This document shows positions 11,735-17,680 of a stretch of 64,000 nt of DNA, piece after piece. The stretch is from Rhodospirillaceae bacterium. GTDB lineage: Bacteria; Pseudomonadota; Alphaproteobacteria; SHVZ01. How positions within the stretch are numbered: position 1 is the stretch's first letter; every line of letters begins with the position of its first letter. Location of the stretch: NCBI GenBank assembly GCA_016792585.1, contig JAEULB010000118.1:1-64000 (forward strand). The letters run 5' to 3'. A model generated the notes under the pieces. It ran no database searches. It was not told the origin of the DNA and worked only from the letters and a program-made list of their open reading frames with translations. A program made the position numbers and the translations under genes.

Positions 11735-12523
11735 ATGATCGCCGAGGCGCTCGCGTGGCTGGCGACGCCATGCCCGCTTTACGTTCGCCGGCTCGGCCTG
11801 CTCTCCGAATCGATCGCGATCTCCGCCCGCCATCGCCGCTGCCGCGCAGCCTGGGCGCCGCATCTCGAAGAGAGTCGTGCCGCTGTGCGAAACGCGATCG
11901 CGCGGACGCCACGCCGGCGGACGGCGCTGGTGATGGGATCGGGAGCTCTTCTGGATGTACCGCTCGACGAGCTCGCGGCGGCGTTTCGCCGCGTGCTGCT
12001 GGTCGACCTCGTCCATCCGTGGCGGGCCCGCCTCCAGGCGCGTCGCTTTTCCAATGTGATACGGATCACCGCCGATATCGGCGGGATCCTTCAAGGTGTC
12101 TCCAGGGGCAAGTTGGTTCGGCCTCGGCCGTTCCCAGCGCTCGCCGACCCGGAGGTCGACTTGGCGATTTCGCTGAACGTCCTCTCGCAGCTGCCGGTGG
12201 CTCCCGTCCGCCATCTCGATGGCAAGGTCGAGGACGAGGCGCTGACGCAAGCCGCTCAGGACCTGGTGCGCCAGCACCTGGACGATCTCGACCGCTCGCG
12301 GGCGACAACGTTGCTGATCTCGGACGTCGAACGAATCCTGCTCGCCCGCGACGGCCGCGAGATCGAGCGCACCAGCCTGATCGCAGACCTGCCGGAACCG
12401 GCATCCGATCACCACTGGTGGTGGAATATCGCCCCGGCTCCCGAGGTCGACGAGGAGACGTCCGAGCGCCGACGGGTGGTCGCCCGGCTTGTTCGGGGTG
12501 CGTTCGGGCCGGAAAGTCTTTAG
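11735..12523 (+). CDS. Hypothetical protein with a methyltransferase-like Rossmann segment
   Basis: A 262-residue protein I cannot assign to a named family. Residues about 62-100 (TALVMGSGALLDVPLDEL, then VLLVDLVHPWRARLQAR) look like the first half of a class I SAM-binding fold, glycine-rich loop followed by an acidic residue at the end of the second strand, and LAISLNVLSQLP could be the motif IV strand. No signal peptide or membrane segment. The C terminus has an aromatic HHWWWNIAP stretch. It starts 11 nt from the operator region, divergent from the RraA-like gene, and is 38 nt upstream of the pentapeptide gene. A methyltransferase role is only an inference. Confidence 0.65.
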   Translation: MIAEALAWLATPCPLYVRRLGLLSESIAISARHRRCRAAWAPHLEESRAAVRNAIARTPRRRTALVMGSGALLDVPLDELAAAFRRVLLVDLVHPWRARLQARRFSNVIRITADIGGILQGVSRGKLVRPRPFPALADPEVDLAISLNVLSQLPVAPVRHLDGKVEDEALTQAAQDLVRQHLDDLDRSRATTLLISDVERILLARDGREIERTSLIADLPEPASDHHWWWNIAPAPEVDEETSERRRVVARLVRGAFGPESL

Positions 12524-12561
12524 ACTCACAGGCAAATACGGCGAAACCAGACCGAGCGCCC

Positions 12562-13911
12562 ATGTCCGAGCCCGATCAGCAAGCCGATTCCGGTCGCTTC
12601 AAGCGGCTGGATCAGGCCGAGCTCGACAAGATCCTGGAGTCGCACGCCAAGTTCGTCGGCGGCCGCTCCGGCGGCCAGCGCGCCAACCTCGGCAGCTACG
12701 ATCTTTCCTATCTCGACCTCTCGGGCAAGAACCTGTCGAACGCCGAGCTCTCCGGCTCGCGGATGGCGAACTGCAATCTGAAGGGCGCCAAGCTGATGGC
12801 GGCCAGCCTGTTCTCGGCCGACCTCAGGAAGGCCGATCTCACCGGCGCCGACCTGACGCGCGTCGACCTGCGCGGCGCCTGCCTCCGCGGCGCCAACATG
12901 ACCAACGCGCTGATGATGGAGTCCGATCTCCGCGACGGCATCCTGCTCAAGGCCGATTCGAAGGGGAATCTCACCACCATGTCCTTCGACATGACGGTGG
13001 CTGACGCCTCGGCGGCGATCCTGCGCGGCGCAAATATGAGCCAGGCGCGGATGTCGAATGCCTTCATCGTGCAGACGGACCTGACCGACGCGATCATGCG
13101 CGGCATCAAGCTCGTCCGCGCCGACCTCTCCCACTGCAACCTGACCGGCGCCAACCTCGAAGGCTCGGATCTCTCGGAAGCGAACCTCACCGGCACGATC
13201 CTGCACGGCGCGATCCTGTCGGGCGCGATCCTGTCGGGCACCAACTTCGAGGGCGCCGACCTGGTCGGCTGCGTGCTCGACTCGGCGGATGCCCGCGGCG
13301 CCGACATGTCGAAGGCGATCCTGCCGCGCTCGCTCGCATCCCTCGGCGAGGAGCTGCGCGAGGTCCTTCAGCGCCACATCGACTGGATCCGGACGGCCGG
13401 CAAGAAGGGCAAGCGCCTCGATCTCTCGCGCTTCGACCTGGGCGGCCAGAACTTCACCGGCGCCAATCTCTCGGCGGCGAACTTCGAGCACGCGCTGCTG
13501 AAGGAGGCGGTGCTGGCGAAGACCGAGCTGCTGATGAGCGACTTCGGCCAGGCCGATCTCCGCAACGCCGATCTCTCAAGCTCCGACATGCGCGGCATCA
13601 ATCTGCGCCGCGCCAACATGTCCGGCGCCAAGCTGGTCGGCGCCAAGGCGGGGCCGGTCAACCTGCTTGGCTCGACCACCCAGGTCTGGGTCTCCAACTT
13701 CGAGCGCGCCCGCCTGATGACCGCCGATCTCTCCGGCGGCAACTTCCGCAAGGCCAACATGCAAGGTGCGGACTTCACCGACGCCTCGCTTCGCGACTGC
13801 GATCTCCGCGAGGCCAACCTCCAGGACGCCGAGTTCCAGGGCGCCGATCTGCGCGGCGCCAATATCGAGAAGGCCGACCTCCGGGGGGCGAAGAACCTCA
13901 CCCGCCCGTGA
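12562..13911 (+). CDS. Pentapeptide-repeat protein with two right-handed solenoid blocks
   Basis: A 449-residue protein made almost wholly of A(D/N)LxG-type five-residue repeats, which fold as a square beta-helix. Two repeat blocks (about residues 40-252 and 285-445) are each preceded by a similar motif: ESHAKFVGGRSGGQRANL at 26-43 and QRHIDWIRTAGKKGKRLDL at 270-288. This internal symmetry suggests duplication of a whole unit. No signal peptide is seen, so it is probably cytoplasmic. The family is mostly of unknown function; a few members mimic DNA and bind gyrase, but nothing here shows that. It is followed after 10 nt by mmcB on the same strand. Confidence 0.88.
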   Translation: MSEPDQQADSGRFKRLDQAELDKILESHAKFVGGRSGGQRANLGSYDLSYLDLSGKNLSNAELSGSRMANCNLKGAKLMAASLFSADLRKADLTGADLTRVDLRGACLRGANMTNALMMESDLRDGILLKADSKGNLTTMSFDMTVADASAAILRGANMSQARMSNAFIVQTDLTDAIMRGIKLVRADLSHCNLTGANLEGSDLSEANLTGTILHGAILSGAILSGTNFEGADLVGCVLDSADARGADMSKAILPRSLASLGEELREVLQRHIDWIRTAGKKGKRLDLSRFDLGGQNFTGANLSAANFEHALLKEAVLAKTELLMSDFGQADLRNADLSSSDMRGINLRRANMSGAKLVGAKAGPVNLLGSTTQVWVSNFERARLMTADLSGGNFRKANMQGADFTDASLRDCDLREANLQDAEFQGADLRGANIEKADLRGAKNLTRP

Positions 13912-13921
13912 GCCTCGCGTC

Positions 13922-14365
13922 GTGACCGGTTCATCCGCCGAAGAAGAAAGAATCGCCCGCCAGATCGCGCTTGGCCTGGTGCGCGCCTTCGGCGAGATGG
14001 GCGAGACCGCGCTGACCGAGGTCACGCTCGCCAACGGCCGCCGCGCCGACGTGCTGGCGCTCGATGCCGCCGGACGCCTCACCATCGTCGAGATCAAGTC
14101 GAGCCGCGCCGATTTCCAGTCCGACCGCAAATGGCGCGAGTACCTGGAATTCTGCGACGCCTTCTACTTTGCGGTCGCCGAGGGCTTCCCGGTCGACCTT
14201 CTGCCCGAGGACGTGGGCCTGATGATCGCCGACCGCTGGAGCGCGCATGTCGTGCGCGAGGCGTTGCTCGAGCCGCTCTCGGCGCCACGCCGGAAGGCGA
14301 TGCTGATCCGCTTCGGCCTGCTCGCCGGAGACCGGCTCCGCAACCTGGTCGACCCGCCGCTCTAG
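13922..14365 (+). CDS. mmcB: MmcB family DNA repair protein
   Basis: A 147-residue protein of the MmcB family, first linked to mitomycin-C resistance and DNA repair in Caulobacter. The fold resembles restriction-endonuclease-like nucleases: E in LTEVTLANGRRADVLAL, D in the same strand, and TIVEIKSSRADFQSDRKW with the ExK pair, so a PD-(D/E)xK core is present. The start is a GTG at 13922, 10 nt after the pentapeptide gene; no ATG fits the conserved N terminus. Its last four bases overlap the stop of the convergent osmC gene. Confidence 0.85.
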   Translation: MTGSSAEEERIARQIALGLVRAFGEMGETALTEVTLANGRRADVLALDAAGRLTIVEIKSSRADFQSDRKWREYLEFCDAFYFAVAEGFPVDLLPEDVGLMIADRWSAHVVREALLEPLSAPRRKAMLIRFGLLAGDRLRNLVDPPL

Positions 14366-14871
14366 GAGCGGTTCACTTGGACCGAAACCGCCGGCGACAC
14401 CTTGATCGTCTGGAAGACGACGCAGTAGCGCTCTGTCAGCTGGATCAGCTTGGCGACCGCGTCCTTGTCGGCGTCGGTCGCGATGTCGAAGGCAAGCCGG
14501 ATCTCGCGGAATCCGACCGGCGCGGTCTTGTCGACGCCCAAGGTGCCGCGGAAGTCCAGATCGCCCTCGCAGCGCACCTTGCCGGACTTGAGCTCGATGC
14601 CGAGCGCGGTCGCGACCGCCCTCAAGGTGACGCCGGCGCAAGCGGCGAGCGCCTGCAGCAGCATGTCGCCGGAGCAGGCGAAGCTGCCGTCGCCGCCGGT
14701 CGCCGGATGCAGGCCCGCCTTGACCAGCGCCTTGCCGGTTTCGACCGAGCAGGCAATCTCCTGTGAGTCGAGGTCGCCCTCGGCCTTCAGCGTGATCACC
14801 GCCGCGTCCGGCGTTTCCTTGTAGCGACTCTTCAGCGGCGCCTGCATGGCGCGAAGATCTTCGGCGTTCAC
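14362..14871 (-). CDS. OsmC family protein
   Basis: A 169-residue OsmC/Ohr-fold protein. This family includes thiol peroxidases that reduce organic hydroperoxides; the region [20 protein letters not shown] holds the family cysteine in the long central helix, and [14 protein letters not shown] carries others upstream. The start is a GTG at 14871 with a strong GGAGG Shine-Dalgarno 4-8 nt upstream, and it overlaps the stop codon of the ABC ATPase gene (GTGA). It is therefore the last gene of the SAM-riboswitch-controlled ABC operon, which points to a role with a sulfur compound taken up by that transporter. Confidence 0.88.
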
Positions 14872-15638
14872 GGAACCTCCAAAACCTCTGGCTCGTAGAT
14901 GCGGCCGGACCTGGCTGCGTGCAGGGTCGAGAGAAGCTGGCGCTTCTCCTCCTGGAACGCGGCTGATGTCCGCTCCCGGGGACGGGCGAGCGCGACCGGC
15001 CGTTCGGCGAAGATGCGCCCGGGCGGGCCGGCGAGCAAGACCACGCGATCGGCCAGCACTAACGCCTCGTCGAGATCGTGTGTCACCAACACCAGGGTCG
15101 GCCGGTCCTCGCGCCAGAGATCGAGCAGGTGATCCTGCAGGTCGGTGCGGGTGAAGGCGTCGAGCGCGCTGAACGGCTCGTCGAGCAGAAGCACCTCGGG
15201 CTGTCCGACCAGCGCGCGGGCGATCGAGACACGTTGCGCCATGCCGCCGGAGAGCTCGCGCGGCAGCGTCTTCGCATAGGCGGCGAGCCCGACGCGGTCG
15301 AGCGCGCGGTTGACCCGGCGCTCGCGTTCGACGGCGTTGAGATGCGCGAGACCGAAGCCGACATTGTCGGCGACGCTGAGCCAGGGCAGCAGGCGTGGTT
15401 CCTGGAAGATGACGCCGATCTCGGGCCTGGGGCCGTCGATCTCGGCATCGTGGAAGAGCGCGCGGCCCGAGGTCGGCGCCTCGAGACCGGCCAACAGGCG
15501 GAGCAGCGTCGACTTGCCGGAGCCGCTGGCGCCGACGAGCGCGACGATCTCGCCGGATGCGACCGACAGCGAGACGTCGGCGAGCGCGTGACGGTTGCCG
15601 AAGCGCTTGGACGCGCGGTCGAGCGTGAGCAGGCTCAT
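14868..15638 (-). CDS. ABC transporter ATP-binding protein (SsuB/TauB/NrtD type)
   Basis: A 256-residue ATPase of the nitrate/sulfonate/taurine importer class. Walker A is GASGSGKST at about 36-44, the Q-loop is [10 protein letters not shown], the signature is [15 protein letters not shown] and Walker B is [12 protein letters not shown], followed by the switch histidine in VTHDLDEAL. It powers import by the membrane protein encoded just upstream, with which it overlaps by 4 nt (ATGA type). Its stop overlaps the osmC start. The paired permease and binding protein favour an aliphatic sulfonate, taurine or similar sulfur-containing substrate. Confidence 0.9.
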
Positions 15639-16468
15639 CGGCGGAACCCGTCCTGCCAGGCGACCATCGGCCGCGTCGCGGTCACGAGCAGGAAGTCGCT
15701 GAGCTTGCCGAGGATGGCGAAGAGCACGAGGCTCGCCAGGATCGCCGCCGGGCGGCCCGTCATCTGGCCATCCATCATCAGGTAGCCAAGGCCCTCGCTG
15801 GCGCCCATCAGCTCGGCGGCGACGACGAACATCCAGCCGAGGCCGAGCCCGCCGCGAAGCCCGATCACATAGGTCGGGAGCGTCGCGGGCAGCAGGATGC
15901 GACGGATCATGTCGAAAGCGGAAAGCCGCCAGACGCGGCCGACCTCGACCAGCTTGCGGTCGACGGAAGCGAAGCCCTGGGCAAGGCTCATATAGACCGG
16001 GAAGAACACGCCGACCGCGATCAGCGTGATCTTCGAGGTCTCGAAGATGCCGAGCCACAGGATGAACAGCGGGACCCAGGCGATCGACGGGATGTTGCGG
16101 AGCGCCTGCACCGACGGATCGAGCAGGCGGTGTGCTACCGGCAGGTAGCCGACCAGCGCACCGAGAACGGTGCCGGCGGCGACGCCGAAGCCGAAACCCA
16201 GCGCCATGCGCGTCAGCGTGGCGACGAGGTGATCCCAGATCTCGCCGGTCGCGAACAGCTGGACGATATGCGCCGCCACCGTGGAGGGCGGCGGCATCAG
16301 GTGCGTGGTGATGACTCCCGTGCGTGCCGCCGCTTCCCAGCCGAGCGCCAGCACCAGCGGCAGCACGAGGCCGAGCCCGACCCGTGCCAGCCGGCGGAGA
16401 CCGCCGGCTGGGCAGGGCGCCACCGCCTTTTGATCGGCGGCGGCGTAGCTGGTGACTTCCGTCGTCAC
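15635..16468 (-). CDS. ABC transporter permease (SsuC/TauC type)
   Basis: A 277-residue inner-membrane subunit with about six transmembrane segments (first at residues 29-48). The binding-protein-dependent transport motif (EAA loop) that docks on the ATPase is [27 protein letters not shown] after the first segment and [18 protein letters not shown] are typical of the SsuC/TauC family. The start is a GTG at 16468, one base after the stop of the binding-protein gene. Partner genes on both sides form one operon of receptor, permease, ATPase and osmC. Confidence 0.9.
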
Positions 16469-16469
16469 G

Positions 16470-17447
16470 TCACTTCCGGGCGACGAGGCGCTGGGCGAAG
16501 CTGTTGTCGACCAGCGACTTCACCACGGCGGCGACGTCGGTTGCAGCCGGGATGAAGTTGGCGGCCTTCAGCGCATCGCCGGCCCCGGTGATCGCCGCGA
16601 CCGGCTTCGGACCGACCTGCGACTCGGTGAAGTCGTTGCGGGTCAGTTGCAGCTTCGCGACCTCGTCGGAGATCTTGGCGTCGCGGATCAGGAGTGCCTT
16701 GAGCCCGTCCGGATTCTCCTTCGCCCACGCACGCGCCTTCTCGTAGGCCTGCAGCACGCGGACGACGAGCTCCGGATTGGCCTCGGCGAACGCCGACCGC
16801 ACGTTCAGCACGCCATAGGTGTTGGCGTCGGCGTTGCGATAGAAGAGCTTCGCGCCACGCTCGACCTCGGCCTGCGCCATGATCGGATCGAGGCCGGCCC
16901 AGGCATCGACGTCACCCTTGTCGAGCGCGACGCGGCCATCCGGATGCTGGAGGAGAACGATCTTCAGGTCCTTCTCGGTCAGGCCCTTCGACGCGAGAGC
17001 CCGCACCAGGAAGATGTGCGGGTCGGTGCCGCGGGTGACCGCGACGCGCTTGCCCTTCAACTGCTCGATCGAGGCGATGCCGGTGTCGGGCCGCGTCACC
17101 AGCGCGGTCCATTCCGGCTTCGAGTAGATGTAGACCGAGTTGATCGGGCTGCCGTTGATCTTCGCCAGCAGGGCTGCCGAGCCCGCGGTCGAGCCGAAGT
17201 CGACGCCGCGCGCGTTCAGGAACTCGATCGCCTTGTTGGATCCGAGGCTCTGCACCCAGCGCACCTGGATGCCGTCCCTGGCGAGATCGGCTTCGAGGAA
17301 GCCTTTCTCCTTCAGCACGATGCTGAGCGGGTTGTACGTCGCCCAGTCGATGCCGACGATTTTCGCCTTGTCCTCGGCGAAAGCCTGGGTCGTGAGTGTG
17401 AAGGCGGCCGCAGCCGCCAGGGTGGAAAGGAAAGTCCGTCGAAGCAT
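16470..17447 (-). CDS. ABC transporter substrate-binding protein (SsuA/TauA-like)
   Basis: A 325-residue periplasmic receptor of the NMT1/SsuA type. Residues 1-24 form a signal peptide with a likely cleavage after AFA. The mature chain has the family pattern: IDWATYNPLSIVLKEKGFLE, LNARGVDFGSTAGSAAL, LKGKRVAVTRGTDPH and the hinge LDKGDVDAWAGLDP. It is the first gene of the operon and its 166-nt leader starts with a SAM-II riboswitch, so it is expected to be made when S-adenosylmethionine is scarce. That points to a sulfur source or methionine precursor as ligand rather than nitrate or thiamine precursors. Confidence 0.88.
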   Translation of the reverse strand: MLRRTFLSTLAAAAAFTLTTQAFAEDKAKIVGIDWATYNPLSIVLKEKGFLEADLARDGIQVRWVQSLGSNKAIEFLNARGVDFGSTAGSAALLAKINGSPINSVYIYSKPEWTALVTRPDTGIASIEQLKGKRVAVTRGTDPHIFLVRALASKGLTEKDLKIVLLQHPDGRVALDKGDVDAWAGLDPIMAQAEVERGAKLFYRNADANTYGVLNVRSAFAEANPELVVRVLQAYEKARAWAKENPDGLKALLIRDAKISDEVAKLQLTRNDFTESQVGPKPVAAITGAGDALKAANFIPAATDVAAVVKSLVDNSFAQRLVARK

Positions 17448-17560
17448 GGTCCTCGCTCCCGAATAACGACGTTCAGGGATGGCGAGGTGTCGCTCAGGGG
17501 TCGGGGCAACGAGCCCCGAGCGGCATCCCGCCGCAGCAAGAGAGCTGGGCGGTAGCCCAA

Positions 17561-17612
17561 CGCTTTAGCCGCATTTCTTAAGCGCCCGCAAGCTGCTGCT
17601 CAAATCGGCGCT
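17561..17612 (-). promoter_or_regulatory. SAM-II (SAM-alpha) riboswitch
   Basis: On the minus strand the leader reads AGCGCC-GATTTG-AGCAGCA-GCTTGC-GGGCGCT-TAAGAAA-TGCGGCTAAAG. The order matches the SAM-II consensus: a P1 stem (AGCGCC with GGGCGCT), the invariant GAUUUG after its 5' strand, GCUUGC before its 3' strand, then UUAA-AA and the terminal CGGCUAAAG that forms the pseudoknot. It begins 2 nt from the start site predicted from the promoter at 17622-17649. Binding of SAM should reduce expression of the ABC-osmC operon. The start codon is about 113 nt further on, longer than usual for this class, with three small hairpins between (for example CGGGGC/GCCCCG at 17502-17518). Confidence 0.85.
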
Positions 17613-17621
17613 GTGGTGGTT

Positions 17622-17649
17622 ACGATATTCACATTTTGTGGAACGTCAA
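17622..17649 (-). promoter_or_regulatory. Sigma-70-type promoter of the SAM-II/ABC/osmC operon
   Basis: On the minus strand TTGACG (17649-17644), 16-nt spacer, TATCGT (17627-17622). The predicted start near 17614 places the riboswitch at the very 5' end of the transcript, which supports both calls. Confidence 0.7.
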
Positions 17650-17657
17650 GAGTCACA

Positions 17658-17680
17658 ATAAACATATTTCGTATGTTTAT
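17658..17680. promoter_or_regulatory. AT-rich inverted repeat upstream of the -35 element
   Basis: ATAAACATA and TATGTTTAT form a perfect 9-bp inverted repeat around TTTCG. It sits just upstream of the -35 box of the ABC operon (about -44 to -66) and includes the dctM stop codon. The position suits an activator site (LysR-type proteins bind such repeats); the AT-only stem makes a terminator less likely. Confidence 0.5.

Follow-up and report, generated by a model that had tools for sequence, protein, structure and literature searches.

SAM-II riboswitches have so far been described as switches for methionine-synthesis genes. Members of this class (Rfam RF00521, SAM_alpha) are built from a P1 stem and an H-type pseudoknot, carry a pocket composed of the elements GAUUUG, UUGC and GCUAAA, and lie a few nucleotides behind a promoter and upstream of sulfur or methionine genes. 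Thirteen nucleotides of the SAM pocket are completely conserved, namely U10-12, U20, U21, G22, C23, G42, C43, U44 and A45-47 (PMC3764141). In alphaproteobacteria, SAM-II elements are mostly coupled to transcription terminators (PMC2258182, PMC1273637), and the published regulons comprise metY, metA and metX-type targets (Leyn 2014, PMC4239095). No report of SAM-II with sulfonate or ssuA targets was found in the open-access literature. A pocket architecture of the SAM-II kind is also present in SAM-V (RF01826), which lacks the final 3' pairing (PMC2704228). Here, we analyzed a 64,000-nucleotide stretch of contig JAEULB010000118.1 from a Rhodospirillaceae bacterium (the window), for which an initial annotation made from the sequence had proposed that a SAM-II aptamer precedes an SsuA-type ABC transporter operon.

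The minus strand carries the SAM-II elements in the order given by that annotation, i.e. P1 (AGCGCC/GGCGCT), GATTTG, GCTTGC, TTAA and GGCTAAAG. An Rfam scan of the whole window at gathering thresholds yielded no match. In a permissive scan of the leader, RF00521 aligned end to end with positions 17621-17545 at 32.4 bits (E 9e-6, or 3.4e-5 over the whole 5.1-Mb genome). The match to SAM_alpha is significant, but the high score that had been expected was not obtained, as 32.4 bits fall below the RF00521 gathering score of 36 bits, a curated threshold for reporting that does not describe any structural feature. The only stronger RF00521 copy in the genome is a normal SAM-II (67.6 bits) preceding an O-succinylhomoserine sulfhydrylase (metZ) gene. 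Model R2, derived from 19 relatives with the window and its sister species left out, scored the window aptamer at 83.2 bits (E 1.2e-20 genome-wide); the runner-up in the genome was the metZ copy with 35.9 bits, and the best other site within the window reached 9 bits. The SAM-V model RF01826 did not match the leader up to E 10. Together with the pocket and the covarying helices described below, these scores bear out the proposed identity: minus-strand positions 17612-17558 are a real SAM-II riboswitch, of a subtype that we term type B, and do not represent a new class.

In this aptamer, the P1 helix joins 17612-17607 to 17586-17581 and L1 (UUU) occupies 17604-17602. The P2 core is formed by U20 U21 G22 C23 (17591-17588) with G42 C43 U44 A45 A46 A47 (17569-17564), and reading the sequence shows that all four possible pairs form in the P2b extension (17598-17595/17561-17558). 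Covariation was assessed in a set of 97 type B sequences. Over the P1 and P2 pairs, 93.7% of the cells were paired, with 82 double-change cells as compared to 28 upon shuffling (0/500), and pairing dropped to 31-54% when P1 and P2 were slid out of register. P1 was paired in 98.8% of the cells with double changes at five of its six pairs, the outermost occurring as A-U, C-G and G-C, and the P2 core was 100% paired. P2b is short in type B and consists of a near-invariant C-G followed by two pairs that are present in 63/88 and 50/88 distinct loops (shuffle expectation 43 and 37.5, respectively). Thus, P1 and the pseudoknot P2 covary. The window contains all 13 of the conserved pocket nucleotides, and the pocket is complete in 91 of the 97 relatives. 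Since the pocket is the same as in ordinary SAM-II even though the scaffold differs, SAM is the expected ligand of type B RNA.

When the loci of SsuA protein relatives were scanned, a near-identical leader was found before ssuA in many alphaproteobacteria. This leader reads AGCGCC-GATTTGAGC-N2-4-CAGCTTGCG-GGCGCT and continues with NNNANAAATGC(A/G)GCTAAAGCG. Type B has the stem, pseudoknot, pocket elements, promoter position and kind of downstream gene in common with RF00521, but it differs from typical members by a near-invariant P1 (GCGCC/GGCGC), a P2b of 3-4 bp and an A-rich AAAUGC before GCUAAA. The final 3' pairing distinguishes it from SAM-V. About 100 relatives sharing the common core mostly score 25-44 bits with RF00521, the top relative of the same type reaching 44.4 bits, and the low score of the window aptamer is therefore a consequence of its subtype. 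Most of 16 genomes with this leader harbor one strong SAM-II copy (58-81 bits) and at least one weak copy (25-44 bits), type B included; intermediate forms score 45-52 bits, such that the border between type B and ordinary SAM-II is imperfectly sharp. When a sample of 385 genomes of the class was searched with a model made from 25 members, at least 60 were found to harbor type B. Among 80 loci of SsuA homologues there were 19 full matches, every one of them just upstream of ssuA. Within the genus, the transporter is confined to the window genome and one further genome (G290), and so is type B, indicating that switch and operon travel together. The initial annotation had overlooked this large sub-threshold subtype, which has its own regulon. 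Two loci contain two type B copies each, with osmC behind one copy and ssuA behind the other (L156, 420-481 and 1125-1187; L161, 443-504 and 1155-1217).

A second SAM-II subtype was encountered 60-170 nt behind type B, mostly before metY (L145, 411-702; L147, 479-677; L168, 443-640; L096, 3539-3365; and about a dozen others). Its sequence is CCCGCGG-GATTTGAGG..GGCAGCTTGC..CCGCG-TCACCAA..GCTAAAGCGCC. It also occurs alone (L087, L090, L092) and reaches only 25-30 bits with RF00521. Where a type B element and its terminator are succeeded by this second SAM-II ahead of metY, the arrangement corresponds to the mixed-platform tandem SAM-II described in PMC9481103, which does not separate subtypes in the available sections. 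The window differs from these tandems in having a single aptamer.

First genes behind type B were called with composition scoring and annotated with NCBIfam and Pfam. The most common were metY/metZ (32), ssuA (31, a number inflated because part of the set had been found through SsuA), osmC (7) and metN (7). Further first genes were cysG for siroheme synthase as well as its N-terminal form, cysH, metQ, NirA/sulfite-reductase-like genes, metH, metF, sfnG for dimethylsulfone monooxygenase, and others. The gene sets preceded by type B include ssuACB-osmC and metNIQ. The regulon of type B thus covers sulfur acquisition and methionine synthesis, and with its transporter and cys genes it differs from the targets published for SAM-II (Leyn 2014, PMC4239095). 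Some less familiar genes were also observed. A RimK-like ATP-grasp protein is encoded directly behind type B (L164, 633-1610; L186) and is a candidate new enzyme of sulfur metabolism. Another protein, of 1159 residues and resembling PRK06567 (putative glutamate synthase-like), is encoded behind type B after a siroheme synthase domain (L146, 1394-4870; L144). In two loci that are unrelated to each other, pentapeptide-repeat genes were seen in the vicinity of a type B operon (window, 11755-13911; L205, 2254-3525), which may be a coincidence.

In the window, the riboswitch is newly recognized as a probable regulator of an ssuACB-osmC operon on the minus strand, and the sulfur regulon of its subtype is broader. 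The first gene encodes an SsuA-type substrate-binding protein (16470-17447; TIGR01728, 218.1 bits with a cut-off of 163.5). It is followed by genes for an SsuC-type permease (15635-16468; PF00528, with SsuC as the best NCBIfam match at 171.8 bits, below the equivalog cut-off), an SsuB-type ATPase (14868-15638; PF00005, 130 bits) and, at the end of the operon, an OsmC-family protein (14362-14871; PF02566, 68 bits). An OsmC-family gene is located downstream of ssuACB in many type B operons. In other phyla, the same transporter family is preceded by SAM-I (S-box, RF00162). This element resides 246 nt upstream of an Acidimicrobiia homologue and upstream of the gene cluster of the homologue in four Hymenobacter loci, and in L050, the one in which gene order was checked, the cluster behind SAM-I reads metY-metX-ssuA-C-B-hom. 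SAM-I was located before SsuA-type transporters at L053 4659-4755, L050 1101-1217, L069 1014-1130, L081 1957-2070 and L084 1676-1793. The aptamer fold of SAM-I is unrelated to that of SAM-II, so that control of this family is convergent, and its presence before the same family in other phyla points independently to a sulfur substrate. The earlier prediction of a sulfur or methionine-related substrate is therefore backed by SAM-I in other phyla and by some 100 type B relatives before sulfur genes. No SsuD is encoded in the genome (G000), and the substrate may thus not be a classic alkanesulfonate; the 15 TauD-family dioxygenases encoded there make a sulfonate or a related oxidized sulfur compound possible. 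This genome accordingly has an oxygenase-rich desulfonation potential.

Just before the aptamer there is a predicted sigma-70-like promoter, TTGACG-N16-TATCGT (17649-17622, minus strand), with a 9/12 match in a consensus scan (0.1 expected by chance), in agreement with the initial annotation. The distance from the aptamer to the ATG (17560 to 17447) is 113 nt, and three hairpins lie downstream of the aptamer, both as previously noted; the distance had been called unusual, but it is similar in relatives. Immediately upstream of the -35 element we found the palindrome AAACAT-N7-ATGTTT (17660-17678), which occurs as a single copy in the 5.1-Mb genome when up to one mismatch is allowed. Matches of at least 7/10 at -66 to -58 from the aptamer were present in 57% of the ssuA-type leaders as compared to 3% of dinucleotide shuffles, and 9% of the metY/Z leaders had a match of at least 7/10. 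The palindrome also occurs in leaders of other sulfur-uptake genes (cysH, metQ and a gene for a sulfate-binding-like protein). This distribution suggests a putative binding site for a second regulator, for which the position would make a sulfur regulator of the LysR type a candidate. A possible upstream open reading frame that would start at the leader ATG at 17526 was rejected, as by eye neither its frame nor its stop is kept in the sister species.

The leader was then considered as an expression platform. SAM-II had been said to hide the ribosome site normally. This is incorrect, since terminators dominate in the literature (PMC2258182, PMC1273637) and of 107 type B leaders subjected to a simple scan, about 83 showed a hairpin with a U-run, in a few cases far downstream. 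In the window, an antiterminator-type hairpin GUUGGGC-UACC-GCCCAGC (17561-17544, minus strand, -11.0 kcal/mol) can be read from the sequence. Its 5' strand opens with exactly the four bases of P2b (GUUG, 17561-17558), and its 3' strand sits inside a terminator-type stem, CCGCCCAGC/GCUGCGGCGG (17552-17528, minus strand, stem -16.2 kcal/mol). No U-run follows this stem in the window or in its sister, and intrinsic termination is therefore not predicted for the window leader. What is unusual about the leader is that the terminator stem is preserved but the U-run behind it is missing. Between window and sister, identity is 19/19 in the stem and 59/62 in the aptamer, as compared to 88/106 for the remaining leader and 30/41 upstream of the -35 element. 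The leader RNA thus looks selected, because stem and aptamer are kept while the flanks differ, suggesting continued selection on both. A hairpin CCUCGC...GCGAGG (17487-17451, minus strand, arms starting at 17487 and 17456, -15.8 kcal/mol) pairs the ribosome-binding region, which was sequestered in this separate hairpin in every fold tried. Leader folding gave no support for a simple ribosome-site switch, as the accessibility of this region was unchanged whether the antiterminator strand was left free or taken out, and the computed folds showed no change at the start codon that would depend on SAM.

We propose, with a probability of roughly three in four, that this type B SAM-II lowers expression of ssuACB-osmC when SAM is plentiful and that it does so through the exchange between P2b, antiterminator and terminator stem. 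Binding of SAM in the pseudoknot pocket would stabilize P2 and trap its 3' strand (17561-17558), which would break the antiterminator hairpin and allow the overlapping terminator-type hairpin (17552-17528) to form. In most relatives, the U-run behind this hairpin would then stop transcription. In the genus of the window, where the stem is kept and the U-run lost, the OFF step probably either proceeds by Rho-dependent or weak termination or affects translation by way of the folded leader together with the ribosome-site hairpin.

A rival explanation is a resemblance by chance or an unrelated conserved leader hairpin, as the score under the Rfam gathering threshold might imply. We give this explanation virtually no weight, as it is refuted by the E value of 1e-20 with the independent model, by covariation and by the recurrence before sulfur genes across the class. 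Another explanation is that the ligand of type B is a different sulfur metabolite, for example SAH or a precursor of SAM, and that tandems with the second subtype act as two-signal gates. The score mode apart from ordinary SAM-II within the same genomes, the regulon centered on sulfur acquisition and the frequency of such B-then-C tandems would be in line with a shifted ligand. However, all 13 pocket nucleotides are unchanged, and tandem SAM-II with a terminator first and a ribosome-site switch second are already known as systems with the same ligand (PMC9481103), so that this reading is largely rejected and appears highly improbable.

A third explanation accepts SAM binding and disputes its consequence: the aptamer would no longer regulate after loss of the U-run in the genus, and the operon would be controlled by a regulator binding the upstream palindrome. 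This would agree with the lack of a terminator in window and sister, and with a palindrome that is unique in the genome and fixed in position in sulfur-uptake leaders. The near-identity of aptamer and stem to the sister species next to diverged flanks suggests continued selection, and we regard a switch without function as unlikely. Beyond the control of ssuACB-osmC by SAM that we favor, type B as a separate SAM-II branch might act together with a palindrome-binding transcription factor, so that sulfur acquisition throughout the alphaproteobacteria would be under the control of two inputs; in the genus of the window, type B would work without the intrinsic terminator and use another output step. 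We offer this wider model tentatively and consider it rather improbable.

Type B, a widespread and poorly annotated subtype that scores mostly near or below the Rfam cut-off, extends SAM-II to genes for the uptake of sulfonate, methionine and sulfate and for reduction, which would make SAM a signal of sulfur sufficiency in general in many alphaproteobacteria. The SAM-I elements before the same family in other phyla provide a substrate prediction for a badly annotated group of 'sulfonate/nitrate' transporters, and the stem kept without its U-run is a natural test of a terminator switch that changes its output.
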